From: an uncultured Thermoleophilia bacterium
Lineage (GTDB): Bacteria; Actinomycetota; Thermoleophilia; Miltoncostaeales; Miltoncostaeaceae
NCBI GenBank assembly: GCA_947258365.1
Contig: CAMYIK010000006.1
Coordinates: forward strand, 1-34,774
Direction of reading: 5' to 3'
Length of the DNA stretch: 34,774 nucleotides
Below the pieces are notes generated by a model. The model made no database searches, had not been told where the DNA came from, and saw nothing but the letters and a program-made list of their open reading frames with translations. Below, one piece after another: positions 12,232 to 34,416 of this stretch (positions within the stretch are counted from its first letter, which is position 1; each line of letters opens with the position of its first letter). Both the position numbers and the translations under genes were made by a program.

Positions 12232-13259
12232 CCGACGAGGAGCGCCTGGGCGACGCCGACGAGGCAGAGGGGGAAGAGGAGCTCGACAGGTCACTGAGGC
12301 CGCGCAGCCTCGATGACTTCCTGGGACAAGGTTCGGTCTCCCTGCAGCTCGGGATCTTCTTGACGGCAGCGCGACAGCGCGGCGAGCCGTTGGATCACAC
12401 TCTTCTGGCGGGGCCTCCCGGCCTCGGCAAGACGTCCCTGGCGGGGATCATCGCCTCGGAGCTCGAGGCGGAGTTCCACCCGACCAGCGGCCCCATGATG
12501 GAGCGCAAGGGTGATCTCGCGGCAATCCTGACGGCGATCGAGCCGGGTGGCGTTCTGTTCATCGACGAGATCCACCGCCTCAATCCCGCAGTCGAGGAGG
12601 TCCTCTACTCGGCCATGGAGGACTTCCAACTGGACGTCGTCCTCGGGCAGGGTCCGTCCGCGCGGACGCTTCGTTTGGATCTGCCGCCCTTCACGCTCGT
12701 CGGGGCGACGACCCGGACGGGACTGTTGACGACGCCTCTACTCGGTCGCTTTGGCGTAGTGCAGCGGCTTGACTATTACTCGGTGGCTGACCTCGCTCGG
12801 ATCGTCTCCCGCTCGGCGGGTCTCCTGGAGCTAGAGATCGATGAGGCAGGAGCCGAGGCTTTGGCCGGGCGTGCGCGAGGCACCCCGCGGATCGCCAATC
12901 GCCTCTTGCGGCGTGTGAGGGATGTCGCGCAGGTCGAAGGGCAAGCCGTCATCGACGAGGCGTACGCGCGGAAGGCTCTCGGCGTTCTCGAGGTCGACGA
13001 GCTGGGGCTTGATGACTTGGACCGTCAGATCCTGAGGTGCTTGGCCATCACGTTCGAAGGACGACCGATCGGTCTCGGCACGCTTTCCGACGCTGTGGGT
13101 GAGGCACCCGACACGGTCGAGGACGTCTACGAGCCGTACCTGCTGCAGGAAGGGCTGCTGGCACGTACGCCACGGGGCCGTATCGCCACCGCCCGTGCGT
13201 ATCGCCATCTCGGCCTCGAACCTCCGAAACCGGACGCGGCACAGGGTGGCCTCTTCTAA
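12228..13259 (+). CDS. ruvB: Holliday junction branch migration helicase RuvB
   Basis: RuvB is the AAA+ ATPase that drives branch migration. The 343-residue protein has Walker A GPPGLGKT (62-69), Walker B FIDEIHRL with D113 and E114, the [16 protein letters not shown] sensor/arginine-finger region and a C-terminal winged-helix domain. The overlap with ruvA (ATGA) implies coupling. The SecD-like gene starts 14 bases before its stop, so that gene sits in the same transcript. Confidence 0.96.
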
Positions 13260-14253
13260 GCGACGCGCGGTCATCGCTGGGCTCATCGGCGCGATGATCG
13301 TGATCTTGGCCGGCTTGGCCTTCGTGCGGCCGTCGGTCGTCGGCTTCGGCGACGATGAGATCGCCGAGTTCGTCCTGTTGCCGCTTGCGACAGCCGAGTC
13401 CGAGGCAACAGACACGGCGGTTGAGCGGACCATCGGGCTCATCGAGGCACGAGCGGAGGCTTTCGGTGTCGATCCACCCGAGATCCTCCGGGAGGACGAC
13501 AAGATCGTGGTCGGCGTGGCGGAAGGGAAAGATCCCGAGGGCTTGGTGAACGACCTCACCAAGCGGGGTCGGATCGAGTTCTTCGACTACGAGGCGAACC
13601 TCGTCGGGGAAGGCACTCTCGACAGCCTGACAGCGGCGATAGAGAGAGCCGGCGCCGCGCCCGGCATCGAGGGCGATTTCTATCTCTTCGATCCCCAGGA
13701 CGAGTTGGTCGTGGGACCGGTATTCGGACGAATCGCGCTGGATGCAGTCGTCGCCGAACGTCTCCCTACCGGGCCGGCGGACGGCTCGTCGGAGCGAAGT
13801 GTCAGGCCAGGGCGCCTCGTCGCGGTCGAGAAGCAGAAGCTCTCACCAGACTCCAAGCTGACCCAATCCGCGTACCAGGTTCTTCGGGATCGACCGACGC
13901 TCGACAACCTCGACATCGAGCTCGTATTCGTGCGAACGAATGCTGAGACGCTTGGCGAACCGACCATCGACCTCGCAATGGACTTCACCGACGAGGGTGG
14001 AGACACGTTTCAGGACATCACGGCCGATTTGGCCCAGCGGGGGCAGATGCTGCAGACGAACCAGACCTTCGCCGTGATCTTGGACAACGAGATCATCAGC
14101 CGGCCGTTCGTCGATTTCAGAGAGCTGCCCAACGGCGTTCCTGGAGGACGCGCCGTCATTCAAGGGAACTTCACGCCAGAAGAGGCGAAGAGGCTGCAGG
14201 CTCAGATCAACGACCCGTTGCCATTGCAGCTCGAAATCCTCCAGCGCAGATAG
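13246..14253 (+). CDS. Stand-alone SecD exported-domain paralog (lacks translocon membrane domain)
   Basis: A 335-residue protein with one N-terminal membrane segment (about 8-26) followed by the periplasmic/exported part of SecD. It is a close paralog of the first half of the SecDF encoded just downstream: [15 protein letters not shown] against FYDYEENLAGQGTLD, then [39 protein letters not shown] and [10 protein letters not shown] align without gaps. It ends after [16 protein letters not shown], exactly where SecDF continues into its multi-membrane domain. The GLDLQGG motif near TM1 of SecDF is replaced by GFGDDEI. The GTG start at 13246 overlaps ruvB; no other in-frame start fits. It probably sits in the membrane with the domain outside and may assist SecDF/YajC in late export. 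Its role is inferred. Confidence 0.8.
13978..14005 (+). repeat. 28-base block identical to 15540-15567 in secDF
   Basis: The bases encoding MDFTDEGGD plus one more are identical in the SecD-like gene and in secDF, in the same reading frame, 1562 bases apart. Flanking bases stay similar with scattered third-position changes. This is the longest perfect match I noticed between the paralogs and is consistent with duplication followed by either constraint or gene conversion. Confidence 0.75.
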
Positions 14254-14655: not shown

Positions 14656-14787
14656 ATGGCCGATGAACGGTTTCGTGCCACTGTGTTGAGCCGTGGCGAG
14701 CGCCCTTCGCGTCGAGTGCCTTATGAGTGCGTGGTCCTGGCATGTGGACCCGCGTTGCCCCCTGAGATGAGGAGTTGCACCACGTGA
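14656..14787 (+). CDS. Possible 43-residue leader ORF overlapping the secDF start
   Basis: ATG 14656 opens a 43-codon frame whose TGA (14785-14787) overlaps the secDF GTG (GTGA). The sequence (MADERFRATVLSRG, later ACGPALPPEM) has no membrane segment or recognised domain. Third-position GC is only about 60 percent, lower than the surrounding genes, and a good ribosome binding site is missing. It may be chance. It is listed because some bacteria place regulatory leader peptides before secDF, and because the stop-start overlap would couple translation. Confidence 0.25.
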   Translation: MADERFRATVLSRGERPSRRVPYECVVLACGPALPPEMRSCTT

Positions 14788-17612
14788 ATGAGGTGCGCCG
14801 TGCATGGATGATGATGGCGGTCGTGATCGGCCTGGTCGCGGCGTCGATCACGGTGGTCGTGCTCCGTCCGACGGTTCTTGGCTTGGATCTACAAGGCGGG
14901 GTGGAGGTCGTGCTTCAGGGGCGCGCGACCGCTGAGTCCGAGGTCAACGACGAGGCCATCGAGCGATCAATCGAGGTCATTCGGAATCGTGTCGACCGCT
15001 TCGGCGTAACCGAGCCCGAGATCCAGAAGCAGGGCGACGACCAGATCATCGTGGCCCTGCCGGGTGCGGACAATCCCGAGCAGGTGGTCGAGGACCTGAT
15101 CCGCCCCGCCCAGCTCAACTTCTACGACTACGAGGAGAACCTCGCTGGTCAGGGCACGCTCGACACGCTGTTCCAGGCCGTCAAGCGCGCGCAGCGCACG
15201 ACACCGGATAACGCCGAACTCAGACGGCCGGCCTTCTACTTGTTCGGGAAGGCTCCTCAGCGAGAATTCCTACTGGGACCGAAGTTTGGTCGACAGTCCT
15301 TCGATGACGCGGTCGAGGCGCAGTTCCCGCAGGGGCGCCCTGGCGGCACGACCATCGAGGAGGTGCCCGCAGGCCTGCTCGTCGCCAGCGAGGAGCAGCA
15401 GCTCTCTCAAGACAGCGACCTGACCCAGTCGCAGTTCCACGTGCTCCAGAACAACCCGGGTCTGTCGGGCAACGACATCGAGCGGGCCTTCGTTCAGACC
15501 AATACGCAGACCCTGGGCGACCCGACGATCGACGTCGCCATGGACTTCACCGACGAGGGTGGAGACAAGTTCCAGGACATCACCGCGGAGCTCGCTCAGC
15601 GCGGGCAGATCCTGCAGACGAACCAGACGTTCGCGGTCATTCTGGACAACGAAATCGTCAGCCGCCCTTTCATTGACTTCCAAGACCTCCCGACCGGTAT
15701 CAGTGGTGGGCGGGCGGTCATCCAGGGGAACTTCTCGACAGGTGAGGCACGGCGTCTCGCCGATCAGATCAACTCCGGTGCCATCCCGATCGAGCTCGAA
15801 GTCATCAGCCAGCAGGAGGTCTCAGCGACCCTTGGTGCGGAGTCCCTCAGGCAGGGCCTGATCGCCGGTCTCGTGGGTCTCGCCCTGGTGCTGATCTTCC
15901 TCATCGCCTACTACCGGGTCTTGGGCGCGGTTGCTGCCTTGGCGCTGCTGATCTACGCCTCGATGCTCTACGCCGCGATCGAATTGGTGCCGGTCACGCT
16001 GACGCTGCCGGGTATCGCGGGAATCATCCTCACCATCGGCGTCGCCTCAGACGCGAACGTCGTGATCTTCGAACGCGTGCGAGAAGAGGCGCGTGCGGGA
16101 CGCACGCCGAGAACAGCTCTTCTGAACGGATACAAACGCGGTATCAGCGCCATCATCGACGCGAACGTCGTGACGCTCGCCACCGCAGTGATCCTGTTCC
16201 TGTTCGCGACCGCCGGAGTCCGTGGCTTCGCCTTCACCCTGTTCATCGGTGTCCTGCTGTCGTTCTTCACCGCGGTCTTCGCCACGAGGGCGATCTTCGG
16301 CCTGCTGGTGGACACACCGGTGCTGCGCGATGACCGGTTCATGGGCCTCAAGCAGAAACAGCCGAACTGGAACTTTGACTTCGTCGGCCGTTGGAAGATG
16401 TGGTTGGCCATTTCGTTCATTCCGATCATCATCGGAATGGGCTGGATCGGCATCAACGGTCTGAACCTCGGCCTCGACTTCGAGAGCGGTAGCCGCTTCC
16501 AGCTGGCCTTCGAGGAGCAACCAAGCGAGACGGCCGTGCGCGAGGCCTTCGCGGACCTCGGCCTAACGGCGAAGGTGCAGGAAACCGAGTCGGTTACCGA
16601 GCAAGGCCTGCTGGGTTTCCAGGTCACGACATCGGTGCTCCAACCCGAGGCGCGCAACGAGGTCGAGGATGCGCTCCAGGAGCAACTCGGCGAGTTCGAG
16701 GTCGAGCAGTTCGATCTCGTCGGGCCGACCTTCGGACGCCAGATCGTGCGCAACGCGATCACCGCGATCATCCTGTCGTTCATCGCGATGGTCGTCTATC
16801 TGACCATCCGATTCGAGTACAAGCTCGCCCTGCCCGCACTTCTGTCGGTCGTCCAAGACGTGCTGCTCTCGATCTCGATCTACGCCTTCACAGGACGGGA
16901 GGTCACCGCGGCGACGGTGGCCGCCTTGCTTACCGTGCTCGGGTACTCCTTGTACGACGTGGTGATCGTGTTCGACCGAATACGAGAAAACGTTCCGATC
17001 CTGCGCGGATGGAAGTACCGCGACATCGTGAACCGCTCGGTCGCCGAGGTGCTGTCGCGATCCTTGATCACGACCTTCACAACCTTGGTACCGATCATCG
17101 CCCTGTTCTTCTTCGGCGGAGAGACGCTCAAGGACTTCGCGTTCGCGCTGGCGGTCGGAATCTTCTCCGGTGGTGCATCGTCGATCGTGATATCCGCGCC
17201 CCTTGCCGCCCTCTGGAAAGAGCGTGAGGACCCGGACAAACAGGCGCCGACCAAGGCGGAGAAGCGCGCCAAGCTCACCACCGGGCGCGACTCGGACGTC
17301 GCCGACGTGGACGAGCTGACTCGTGCGGAGATGATGCTCGACCAGGAACTCGCCGCGGAGGTCGCGCGCGCGGAGGGCAAGTCCCAGATCGGGGCCGGCG
17401 AGGTGGAGATAGAGATCGCCGACCAGGCGCTGCAGGATGCCCTCCCTGATGAGGAGCCTCCGGACCAACCCGAGGCGGATCCGGACGCGGATGCGCCCGA
17501 GCCTGCCGAAGGTGCCGAGCCTGAGTCCACGACACCCACCGAGAAGCGGCCCAGGCGGGCACGGTCCGGCAAGCGCCGGCACCAGAACGTCCGCAAGCGC
17601 CGGCGCCGCTAA
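14784..17612 (+). CDS. secDF: Fused protein translocase subunit SecDF
   Basis: A single 942-residue chain joins SecD and SecF. SecD: GLDLQGG at 33-39, a large exported domain, then the six-segment membrane bundle with VASDANVVIFERVREE containing D423 of the proton path. SecF begins near W529 (WNFDFVGRWKMWLAIS), with GLDFESGS near 563-570 and a second bundle with YDVVIVFDRIREN. SecDF uses the proton gradient to pull exported proteins out of SecYEG. GTG 14784 has GAGGAG nine bases upstream and is preferred over TTG 14775. The chain ends in an unusual tail of about 130 residues, first acidic (DEEPPDQPEADPDADAPEP), then strongly basic (GKRRHQNVRKRRRR). Confidence 0.94.
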   Translation: MNEVRRAWMMMAVVIGLVAASITVVVLRPTVLGLDLQGGVEVVLQGRATAESEVNDEAIERSIEVIRNRVDRFGVTEPEIQKQGDDQIIVALPGADNPEQVVEDLIRPAQLNFYDYEENLAGQGTLDTLFQAVKRAQRTTPDNAELRRPAFYLFGKAPQREFLLGPKFGRQSFDDAVEAQFPQGRPGGTTIEEVPAGLLVASEEQQLSQDSDLTQSQFHVLQNNPGLSGNDIERAFVQTNTQTLGDPTIDVAMDFTDEGGDKFQDITAELAQRGQILQTNQTFAVILDNEIVSRPFIDFQDLPTGISGGRAVIQGNFSTGEARRLADQINSGAIPIELEVISQQEVSATLGAESLRQGLIAGLVGLALVLIFLIAYYRVLGAVAALALLIYASMLYAAIELVPVTLTLPGIAGIILTIGVASDANVVIFERVREEARAGRTPRTALLNGYKRGISAIIDANVVTLATAVILFLFATAGVRGFAFTLFIGVLLSFFTAVFATRAIFGLLVDTPVLRDDRFMGLKQKQPNWNFDFVGRWKMWLAISFIPIIIGMGWIGINGLNLGLDFESGSRFQLAFEEQPSETAVREAFADLGLTAKVQETESVTEQGLLGFQVTTSVLQPEARNEVEDALQEQLGEFEVEQFDLVGPTFGRQIVRNAITAIILSFIAMVVYLTIRFEYKLALPALLSVVQDVLLSISIYAFTGREVTAATVAALLTVLGYSLYDVVIVFDRIRENVPILRGWKYRDIVNRSVAEVLSRSLITTFTTLVPIIALFFFGGETLKDFAFALAVGIFSGGASSIVISAPLAALWKEREDPDKQAPTKAEKRAKLTTGRDSDVADVDELTRAEMMLDQELAAEVARAEGKSQIGAGEVEIEIADQALQDALPDEEPPDQPEADPDADAPEPAEGAEPESTTPTEKRPRRARSGKRRHQNVRKRRRR

Positions 17613-31735: not shown

Positions 31736-31752
31736 TGTCAGAGCCTCTGACA
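31736..31752 (+). promoter_or_regulatory. 17-base perfect palindrome upstream of the Ala/Pro-rich gene
   Basis: TGTCAGAG and CTCTGACA are exact inverted copies around one central C, 27 bases before ATG 31779. The size and symmetry are typical of dimeric repressor operators. A GATAAC sequence at 31757-31762 could be a -10 box, which the palindrome would overlap or adjoin. Confidence 0.5.
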
Positions 31753-31778: not shown

Positions 31779-32711
31779 ATGGACGTGCCCGCCCACACGG
31801 AAACCGCTCACCGGCACCTCGCCGGCGTCGTCACGATCATCGTGGCGCTCGTCGCGCTGTTCGCTGCCGGTCCCGCCATGGCCGAAGAGGCTGTGGTCGA
31901 CGTTCCTGTGGCGCCGGTCGAGGCTCCTCCGACAGAGGAAGCTCCGACCGCGGAGGAGACCGTTCCTGCGACTCCCGCCGAGGAACCGGGAGCGGTTCCC
32001 GTCGCGGAAGACGAGGCGGTCCCCCTCGAGGATCTCCTTACTGCGCTGCCGGCCGAAGAGGCCGCGGTGGAGCCCGATCCCGCACCAGTGGCGCGGGAAG
32101 CCATCCCGGTAGAGCCCGCGGCTCCAAGTCTCGCCGCACCTGCGGCGCCCCTGACAGCCGTTGCCGCTCCGCCGAACGCCGCGCCTGACGCACCGAGCGT
32201 CGCCACAGCACCGTCGCGACCCGACCCGGTGACTCCGGTGGGGAGGCCGTACGCCACCCCGATCGGCTCACCTGCGCAGATCGCTCCTCCGGAGCCTCCG
32301 CCTGACCCGGTTCCGGCGGCTCTCACGAAGTCCCGCCTGAAGCTTTCCGACTCGGGCCTTGGCTCGACGATCGACAAGCTGACGAAGGAGTGGGGCGAGG
32401 CGTCGACAGCATCCGCAGGTACGAACGGGGAGATCCCGCTGGTGGAAGCCAGCACGCCGTTCGTCGAGCAGATCACCGAGGTTCGGGCATACAGCCTTCC
32501 CTCGGCCGGTGGCGGCTTCTTGCAGCTTCTCGTTGCCTGGGTGGCTCCTGGTGATCTCGGTGGCGCAGCGGTTCTCGCGCCCATCACTCAACTTCTTTTC
32601 GTTCTGGTCGCCTGGATGCTCGTCCGGCCGCGGCCTCTTCGGGAGTCACTCTCCCGCTTCAGCGCGGACCCACGTGTGGGCTACCGCGCCGTCGTACTCA
32701 GACCCGGATAG
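31779..32711 (+). CDS. Secreted or membrane-anchored Ala/Pro/Glu-rich protein
   Basis: A 310-residue protein. It has a signal-type N-terminal segment (GVVTIIVALVALFAAGPAMA, cleavage likely near residue 33) and a long disordered low-complexity region rich in Ala, Pro, Glu and Val (about 35-195). A modest folded or amphipathic region (KSRLKLSDSGLGSTIDK) follows, and near the C-terminus a membrane segment (AAVLAPITQLLFVLVAWMLV) precedes a basic tail. That layout suggests a protein that spans or is anchored in the envelope, with the low-complexity part in the wall. I prefer ATG 31779 because it starts the signal segment; an in-frame start at 31665 would add an improbable 38-residue leader and include the palindrome. 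Confidence 0.62.
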   Translation: MDVPAHTETAHRHLAGVVTIIVALVALFAAGPAMAEEAVVDVPVAPVEAPPTEEAPTAEETVPATPAEEPGAVPVAEDEAVPLEDLLTALPAEEAAVEPDPAPVAREAIPVEPAAPSLAAPAAPLTAVAAPPNAAPDAPSVATAPSRPDPVTPVGRPYATPIGSPAQIAPPEPPPDPVPAALTKSRLKLSDSGLGSTIDKLTKEWGEASTASAGTNGEIPLVEASTPFVEQITEVRAYSLPSAGGGFLQLLVAWVAPGDLGGAAVLAPITQLLFVLVAWMLVRPRPLRESLSRFSADPRVGYRAVVLRPG

Positions 32712-32787
32712 GTCCAGCGCTCCGGTAGCCGCGGCGACGCCGCGGCCGCTTGAAGCTGCCCTGGTTACTGCTGACGTGGTATCCGAG

Positions 32788-33258
32788 ATGACGACCTTTC
32801 TGGATCTCATGAACGACACAATCACCGTTCTCTTCCTGGCCCCCGGCGGTTCGAATCGCCGAGAGGCGGTCGAGCGCCTGGCGCGACTCGATTGCCGGGT
32901 CCACGAGGACATTCCAACACCCGCGGCCACGGCGGTGCCCAGCGACCTGCTGGTACTCGATCTCCGACACGAGCACGAGGACTGCGCAGAGTTCACGAAG
33001 GCGCTGCTGGATGACCCGCGACCACTCGTCGTCTTGGCCGAAGGGCCGTGCACTCAGGTGCGCGCGCTCGTCGACCGAGCGGCGGGGACCATGCTCATGA
33101 CGGGAGCCGAGGACGACTCGGGCTATCGCGTGGCGCTCAGTGTCAGCCGAGGGCTCGCCGCACGTCGGCGAACTCCGCGGCGGCAATCGCGGCCGCGCGC
33201 CTCAGTCACCCACGGTCCCACCCTCAGTGCGGCGCCACCCGCCGCACTGAGCGCCTGA
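32788..33258 (+). CDS. Receiver-like protein, possibly degenerate response regulator
   Basis: A 156-residue protein with an alternating strand-helix pattern resembling a CheY-like receiver: ITVLFLAPGG, LDCRVHED, DLLVLDLRHEHED with D58 at the phospho-acceptor position, then PLVVLAEG. The usual acidic pair at the end of the first strand is missing, so it may not be phosphorylated. The C-terminal 30 residues are basic and low-complexity. ATG 32788 is the most likely start; GTG 32776 is an alternative. The frame also continues upstream into the end of the preceding gene. A terminator-like hairpin lies within the last codons. Confidence 0.45.
   Translation: MTTFLDLMNDTITVLFLAPGGSNRREAVERLARLDCRVHEDIPTPAATAVPSDLLVLDLRHEHEDCAEFTKALLDDPRPLVVLAEGPCTQVRALVDRAAGTMLMTGAEDDSGYRVALSVSRGLAARRRTPRRQSRPRASVTHGPTLSAAPPAALSA
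33223..33251 (+). terminator. 12-base inverted repeat at the end of the receiver-like gene
   Basis: CTCAGTGCGGCG and CGCCGCACTGAG form a perfect stem with loop CCACC, ending five bases before the stop codon at 33256. It codes LSAAPPAALS-like residues, so the terminator sits inside the reading frame's end. No T-run follows. Confidence 0.55.
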
Positions 33259-33320
33259 CGCCGCAGGGCTCAGACGCTTCTGGGGCATGAACTGATTACC
33301 TGAGCAAGGAGAACAAACTC

Positions 33321-33416
33321 ATGATGACGCTCATTGGCGCGGCCTTCTTGGCCGGCTGCTTCGTCGCAGGCTTCCTCGCGGCAAACCGCCGCGCTCGAGT
33401 CGCCTGCGCCTACTAG
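33321..33416 (+). CDS. 31-residue membrane microprotein
   Basis: A 31-codon frame beginning ATG ATG at 33321, preceded by AAGGAG at nine bases (33306-33311), a strong ribosome binding site. It encodes a single hydrophobic helix (LIGAAFLAGCFVAGFLAA) followed by a short basic end (NRRARVACAY). Such one-helix proteins often assist larger membrane complexes; the partner is unknown. It ends seven bases before the convergent 70-residue gene. It lies downstream of the hairpin at 33223-33251, so it probably has its own promoter (GATTAC at 33294-33299 is a weak -10 candidate). Confidence 0.55.
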   Translation: MMTLIGAAFLAGCFVAGFLAANRRARVACAY

Positions 33417-33423
33417 GTAGACG

Positions 33424-33636
33424 CTATGCCGCTCGCACGATCGCGCCCACCAACTGGCCGTCCTCAGTGACGCACGCTCCCAGTTGGTGGCCGCGATCAT
33501 CGAGCACCACGCCCTCGTGTTCGGTCGCCTTGATGACGCGCCCGTCCGGGGTCACGACGTAGCCCCAAGCCTCCGACGCCTCAGCGTCAGACTTCGCCTG
33601 AGTGACCCGGCTGTCGTCTCTACGAATCTCTCTCAT
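33424..33636 (-). CDS. Small hypothetical protein, 70 residues
   Basis: A 70-residue soluble protein with an N-terminal charged helix (REIRRDDSRVTQAKSDAEA) and two beta-hairpin-like repeats containing DG turns (YVVTPDGRVIKA and CVTEDGQLVGAIV). On the minus strand the ATG is preceded by AGGAGGTGA, a nearly perfect anti-16S match with good spacing, which implies strong translation. No family is recognised. It lies downstream of the frameshifted aquaporin on the same strand, separated by a hairpin. Confidence 0.6.
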   Translation of the reverse strand: MREIRRDDSRVTQAKSDAEASEAWGYVVTPDGRVIKATEHEGVVLDDRGHQLGACVTEDGQLVGAIVRAA

Positions 33637-33654
33637 CTCTCACCTCCTGCCTGC

Positions 33655-33676
33655 TTCTTCTCCACGCGGAGAAGAA
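33655..33676 (-). terminator. Hairpin between the aquaporin remnant and the 70-residue gene
   Basis: TTCTTCTCC and GGAGAAGAA are exact inverted copies around ACGC (33664-33667). On the minus strand the stem falls 16 bases after the aquaporin stop and ends just before the AGGAGGTGA ribosome binding site of the small gene. It could be a terminator, or it could shield the leader of the small gene. Confidence 0.48.
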
Positions 33677-33692
33677 CACCTGTTCGCCTAGG

Positions 33693-34416
33693 CTAGGACT
33701 TGGCTCGGACGGCACCCTCAGGACGAGAGATCCCCAGATAGAGGACGGCGCCGATCGTCGCGCCCACAAAGGGTGCGCAGATGTAGATCCAGAGGTCAGT
33801 GAAGACCCCATGCAACAGAGCAGGGCCAAGAGAACGGGCGGGGTTCATCGAAGCACCCGTAGCCGCACCCATCACCAGCGCCTCCAGGGCGACGGTGCCG
33901 GCAATGGCCAGAGCGGCCATGGAACTCTCGGCGCGGGCGTCGGTCGCTACCGAGGTGATCACGAACATCAAGACGGCCGTCATAACCAACTCGATGCCGA
34001 AAGCGGGCCCGACATCCATCAGCCCTGGGCGCGCAAATCCGAAGTCGACGTCACGGCCGAAGGCCAGCAGAAGTCGATAGCGAGGCCACGGTGGCGCCGA
34101 TCACCTGAGCAAGGATGTAGGCGACGGCATCCTTCGGCGGAAGTCGACGAAGCAGCGCGAAGGCCATTGTGACCACCGGGTTGAGGTGCGCTCCCGAGAC
34201 GTGACCTGTCGCCAGTACCATGACGAGCACCGCAAGACCGAACGCGGCGGCGATGCCTCCGGCACCAGGTGAACCATCGATCTGCACGTTGACGACGATG
34301 GCGCCCTTGCCGCCCGCCACACGGACGAAAGTGCCAATGCCTTCGGCGACAGCGCGGCGCGCAACGTTGCGCGCGCGGTTTCCGGATCGTCGGCCACCGC
34401 GGGACCGTGCCTGAAT
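33693..34416 (-). pseudogene. Aquaporin/MIP channel with frameshift
   Basis: Two minus-strand frames together make a major intrinsic protein. The upstream one reads VAEGIGTFVRVAGGKGAIVV, LAVLVMVLATGHVSGAHLN followed by PVVT, and LAQVIGATVASL, then hits TGA near 34051. The downstream one picks up in another frame with LLLAFGRDVDFGFARPGLMD, FGIELVMTAVLMFVITSVATDARA and TGASMNPARSLGPALL. The shift falls at about 34064-34080, one extra base in the sequence as given. The first pore motif is NPV instead of NPA; the second is intact NPA. No ATG, GTG or TTG opens the upstream frame before the first membrane helix. It is a recent pseudogene or a sequencing error. Confidence 0.72.

Follow-up and report, generated by a model that had tools for sequence, protein, structure and literature searches.

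Small single-pass membrane proteins such as KdpF and CydX are encoded in the operon of the partner that they accompany, and small residues at four-residue steps are known to favour the packing of such helices. Small hydrophobic proteins are also found in type I toxin-antitoxin loci, among them txpA/ratA, whose partners are convergent and overlap at their 3' ends. As type I systems are described in PMC6563280, their toxins are hydrophobic, shorter than 60 residues and charged at the C-terminus, their antitoxins are antisense RNAs, and overlapping convergent pairs occur. For the ends of messages, stem-loops lacking a U tract have been described in Streptomyces, where they are likened to the I-shaped terminators of GC-rich genomes (PMC8269248).

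The window, meaning the whole 34,774-nucleotide stretch analysed here, is one complete contig of its genome (G000) and contains a gene for a 31-residue microprotein that faces a gene for a 70-residue protein (Table 1). Our main reading, with a probability of roughly 55%, is that the shorter protein is a genus-restricted, single-pass membrane microprotein encoded by the last cistron of a three-gene plus-strand operon, that the message ends at the hairpin H2, and that the product acts as an accessory peptide in the membrane. The operon would lead from an exported protein with a predicted membrane segment at its C-terminus through a receiver-like protein to the microprotein, and its message would terminate at H2, which lacks a U tract and lies in the 3' end of the independent, convergent 70-residue gene. 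Within this reading we infer co-transcription, termination at H2, the partner and the function. A role as membrane accessory peptide is the most likely one for the microprotein.

Table 1. Positions in the window of the small convergent genes, their ribosome binding sites, the two hairpins and the upstream features.
Feature	Coordinates	Strand	Remarks
Microprotein, 31 residues, predicted single-pass membrane	33321..33416	+	Residues 1-20 and last seven invariant
AAGGAG, microprotein ribosome binding site	33306..33311	+	Nine bases 5' of ATG; AAGGGG in L091
70-residue protein, convergent independent gene	33424..33636	-	Disordered start, then five predicted strands
Perfect AGGAGGTGA before 70-residue gene	33640..33648	-	Three bases 5' of ATG; AGGAGGT in L091
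H2 hairpin, 18 pairs, one mismatch, 22-base loop	33439..33498	+	Within 3' end of 70-residue gene; probably terminates the plus-strand message or forms its 3' stem
H1 hairpin, 12 pairs	33223..33251	+	Last codons of receiver-like gene; 70 bases before microprotein start
Receiver-like protein, weak AmiR_N similarity	32788..33258	+	Two in-frame starts possible, the first more probable
Exported Pro/Ala-rich protein, C-terminal hydrophobic segment	31779..32711	+	Predicted signal/membrane segments, read from translation; first gene of proposed operon
Palindrome TGTCAGAGCCTCTGACA, operator-like	31736..31752		Before exported-protein gene; conserved in L091

All pair comparisons below involve two sequences, the window and L091 (JAOTZF010000141.1, Thermoleophilia bacterium isolate 21_Jan_SF_Bin72), a Thermoleophilia MAG that stands for the genome G007. 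The earlier note on this DNA had described a 31-residue microprotein with its own ribosome binding site and a single hydrophobic helix, and this description holds: the AAGGAG site is correctly placed before the ATG, the frame is conserved as protein, hydropathy over 17 residues peaks at 2.28, and the AlphaFold2 model is one helix spanning residues 2-30 (pLDDT 83.1). The ribosome site is weaker in the sister genome. Three arginines fall within residues 23-26 and make a charged stretch close to the C-terminus. Along the helix, A8, G12, A16 and A20 stand at four-residue steps and are all invariant; this face may pack against itself or against a different transmembrane helix, with the exported protein as a possible source. 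The microprotein is identical at 28/31 residues in the sister genome, with six base changes in codons 1-20 that are all synonymous and three residue changes confined to positions 21-24. The 70-residue protein is identical at 46/69. Both small proteins are under purifying selection, with dN/dS values of 0.21 for the microprotein (column-shuffle P 0.0015) and 0.46 for the 70-residue gene (P 0.00075). Synonymous divergence (pS) is lower in the microprotein (0.29) and receiver-like (0.32) genes than in the two genes preceding them (0.54 and 0.52).

Conservation of the pair, which the earlier note had set beforehand as a check, is thus seen in the sister genome, where the genes also keep the same order: a 113-residue gene (-), the exported-protein gene (+), the receiver-like gene (+), the microprotein (+), the 70-residue gene (-) and an aquaporin remnant (-). 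The distance between the two stops is maintained as well, at 7 bases in the window and 9 in L091. Within the 42 genomes of the family, which are the same 42 as those of the order, both proteins are confined to their own genome and G007, the one further genome that represents the genus; at E <= 1, single-sequence searches of this set with the two proteins gave matches in 26 and 7 genomes, strong only in those two. Across 399 genomes of the class, the microprotein profile matched 38 at E <= 0.1 and was full-length only in the two genus copies, the next best covering 18 residues of a 505-residue frame (6.7e-4). Among 396 genomes of the phylum, two matched the microprotein at E <= 0.001, namely its own genome and a 20-residue piece with an internal stop. 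The 70-residue profile matched 14 of the 399 class genomes at E <= 0.01, again strongly only in the two genus copies. No further full-length microprotein was found in the 399 class and 396 phylum genomes, and no further 70-residue protein in the class draw. A microprotein match in Halopenitus persicus, one of two genome-contig loci, spans 14 residues and was taken as chance.

The 70-residue gene was said in the earlier note to have a nearly perfect AGGAGGTGA ahead of it; the match proved to be perfect, and the seven bases between the two stops were likewise confirmed. The protein is modelled as five strands following a disordered start (pLDDT 67.7). It has no significant family or fold match, with nothing in Foldseek at E <= 0.001, and no match in viral contigs or plasmids. 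PDB matches of its profile were five repeat-built chains of WD-40 type, in three of which no single stretch passed (3/5), and all were taken as repeat effects. Both small genes are real. Their close convergence is not a special arrangement, as had been suggested: counting open reading frames judged to be genes, the window has six convergent junctions, whose gaps measure -4, -21, -4, -4, -35 and +7 bases. Since all six overlap or abut, the 7-base gap of the studied pair is ordinary, even though it is the widest.

Upstream of the 70-residue gene on its own strand lies a split aquaporin gene of the MIP family (34320-33693, -), the halves of which (34320-34051 and 34019-33693) match Pfam MIP in different frames. 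Only part of this gene is left at the same place in L091, and it looks to be decaying in the genus. A 9-pair hairpin (33655-33678) separates the aquaporin remnant from the ribosome site of the 70-residue gene, and L091 has a stem that is similar without being identical. Elsewhere in the window, a protein encoded at 13259-14253 appears, from its translation, to resemble the N-terminal part of an adjacent long SecD/SecF-like protein (14775-17612).

The microprotein starts 62 bases after the stop of the receiver-like gene. A scan of 32700-34400 found no consensus promoter, and a well conserved block precedes the exported-protein gene (118 identical columns of 156/165); because of this spacing, the promoter scan and the block, the microprotein is most likely the third cistron. 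The 62-base stretch is itself fairly conserved (43 identical columns of 62/60), so that a non-consensus promoter belonging to the microprotein is possible. The block contains the palindrome TGTCAGAGCCTCTGACA, followed by GATAACCT. The palindrome looks like an operator; it was discarded as a marker of a regulon, since it occurs only once in the genome. An 8-pair hairpin, GCCGCGGC-GAC-GCCGCGGC (32728-32746), lies between the genes for the exported and the receiver-like protein and is kept in L091 with another loop. The receiver-like gene scores 21.1 bits against Pfam PF21332 (AmiR_N), below the cut-off of 27, and is for that reason named receiver-like only.

A search for receiver-like genes gave 21 matches. 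Fifteen loci were inspected, leaving aside the five weak ones, L082-L086, and a match that had no locus; the set became 14 on removal of the fragment L081, and 12 for hairpins, where the two genus copies were also removed. One of these loci, L087, lies on contig 178 of the same genome (G000) and has a second receiver-like gene preceded by a relative of the C-terminal segment of the exported protein, which suggests a duplicated two-gene unit. No microprotein was seen in this paralogous operon, so it is not essential to the gene set. None was found after any of the other 13 receiver-like loci; the ribosome-site filter used there also missed the sister copy, L071 (AAGGGG), and the profile and sequence searches agree with its result. 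Because it is absent after all 13, L087 included, the microprotein is regarded as an add-on of the genus. It is a short one-helix protein conserved as protein, as expected of an accessory microprotein, and its placement on the same strand behind the same upstream genes was found in one sister genome and not in other genera.

Two hairpins that the earlier note had overlooked, H1 and H2, bracket the microprotein. The earlier note had seen no terminator between the genes. This is borne out for the 7-base gap and by a scan for U-tract terminators, which found 0, but not for the junction as a whole, since a large hairpin, H2, starts 22 bases after the stop of the microprotein and overlies the final codons of the 70-residue gene. 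No other inverted repeat in the window is as strong as H2, which scores 16 (next 12), compared with a best of 15 among 60 Markov sequences of window length. A 60-base scan of folding energy reached -30.6 at the junction, short of the 5% point of -32.4 from 600 random stretches. The 91-base stretch holding the full H2 stem has a z of -3.69, with 0/200 shuffles folding as well, and the corresponding values in L091 are -2.60 and 4/200.

Both hairpins keep their pairing in the sister genome, where 13 substitutions leave 29/30 pairs intact. Both sides changed in four pairs, of which three became another Watson-Crick pair and one G-U; five changed on one side, four of these to G-U, and the innermost H2 pair was lost. 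All five G-U pairs of L091 form in plus-strand RNA and are A-C mismatches on the other strand, and H1 of L091 folds at -18.1 kcal/mol on the plus strand and at only -11.0 on the other. Random substitution kept at least 29 pairs with P 0.0 (50,000 trials), 0.0001, 0.0018 and 0.016 at transition fractions of 0.4, 0.6, 0.8 and 1.0. A within-pair shuffle control for H2 alone was not significant (128/500).

H2 is a strong, GC-rich stem soon after a stop, with conserved structure, as a hairpin terminator without a U tract would be. Strong hairpins of this kind (score at least 10, within 120 bases after a stop) follow 9/12 of the other receiver-like loci, where the background averages 0.10, and, with gene ends again taken from frames judged to be genes, 7/34 of the gene ends in the window, against 0.037 in random stretches. 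Because such hairpins follow other loci and gene ends, and given the Streptomyces precedent (PMC8269248), H2 is taken as the 3' stem of the operon or its terminator. The message probably stops there, within the facing gene, and the position of the hairpin suggests a plus-strand transcript that extends about 80 bases beyond the microprotein stop into that gene. With the transcript reaching H2, the 3' ends of both genes probably overlap. That H2 falls within the facing gene, at its 3' end, is attributed to the tight packing of the genome; the gene ending at 1767 (-) has a second such hairpin, likewise inside its facing gene.

Several other explanations were weighed against the accessory microprotein. 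That its frame is open by chance would suit its very short length and its restriction to one genus in our searches, but the first 20 codons show synonymous changes only (column-shuffle P 0.00025 there), and 0/100 simulated windows gave a comparable ORF. In those 100 Markov-1 windows, the mean number of ATG ORFs of 25-45 aa with a ribosome-binding site and a hydrophobic segment was 0.0 (observed, 1), and site matches of at least 7 bases before ORFs of 25-75 aa numbered 0.42 per window (observed, 2). Conservation and simulation together led us to reject a chance frame, which is extremely improbable. The paired changes in H1 and H2 could also be mutational and carry no RNA function, since template-switch correction of palindromes can mimic compensation. 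Two double changes of H2 do sit in adjacent pairs, and the comparison involves two sequences, with P rising to 0.016 under transitions only. Yet both hairpins retain pairing, the five G-U pairs suit plus-strand RNA and would not arise from template switching, and homologous genes are also followed by similar hairpins, which makes this origin of the changes quite unlikely.

The resemblance to type I toxin-antitoxin loci that the earlier note had drawn fared poorly. The microprotein would in this case be a membrane toxin silenced by RNA from the facing strand, and its 31 residues, one hydrophobic helix and charged stretch near the C-terminus fall within the description of such toxins, as the convergent arrangement with probable 3' overlap does within that of overlapping pairs (PMC6563280). 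A non-coding antisense antitoxin, on the other hand, does not fit a facing gene that shows protein-level conservation and has a strong ribosome site of its own, and an Rfam search returned no antisense RNA, though that strand may carry a further RNA. The microprotein occurs once in its genome, PADLOC models of defence systems gave no match, and tight convergence is the rule in the window. Type I control was consequently dropped as the leading reading and is very improbable. Less doubtful, though still unlikely, is mutual control at the 3' ends, in which two coding messages, neither of them for a toxin, overlap across H2 and interfere with each other or are cleaved as a double strand. The placement of H2 within the facing gene, its conservation as structure and the maintained distance between the stops speak for it, but a genome this compact can be expected to have overlapping ends, the hairpin at 1767 is placed in the same way, and the regulation has no support in any result. 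More speculative is the specific proposal that H2 does double duty: it would terminate the microprotein message while also encoding the final residues of the facing protein, and through this common hairpin the two conserved coding messages would control each other at their 3' ends. This is improbable; if true, the pair would be the equivalent of a type I locus with two proteins, in an actinobacterial lineage that has been little studied.

The accessory-microprotein reading adds a well-supported gene of a size often skipped by annotation, beside a conserved hairpin whose bases must also serve the opposite gene as codons. Should this shared hairpin control both messages, the locus would offer a simple example of two protein genes regulating each other at their 3' ends; if not, an operon simply ends here in the ordinary way of a tightly packed genome. 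Compared with the 3' ends lacking a U tract that are described for Streptomyces clavuligerus (PMC8269248), H2 differs in lying inside the coding end of a facing gene, where its terminator role is putative, and agrees in being a GC-rich stem that lacks a U tract and closely follows a stop; the same paper also describes bidirectional ends. With the type I loci described for Clostridioides difficile (PMC6563280), the pair shares a small hydrophobic one-helix protein, a convergent neighbour and a probable 3' overlap, whereas here the neighbour is a conserved protein-coding gene and the microprotein is single-copy. Unlike KdpF and CydX, the microprotein is restricted to one genus in these data; like them, it has about 30 residues and one strongly conserved predicted helix, and is probably encoded in a last or late cistron.
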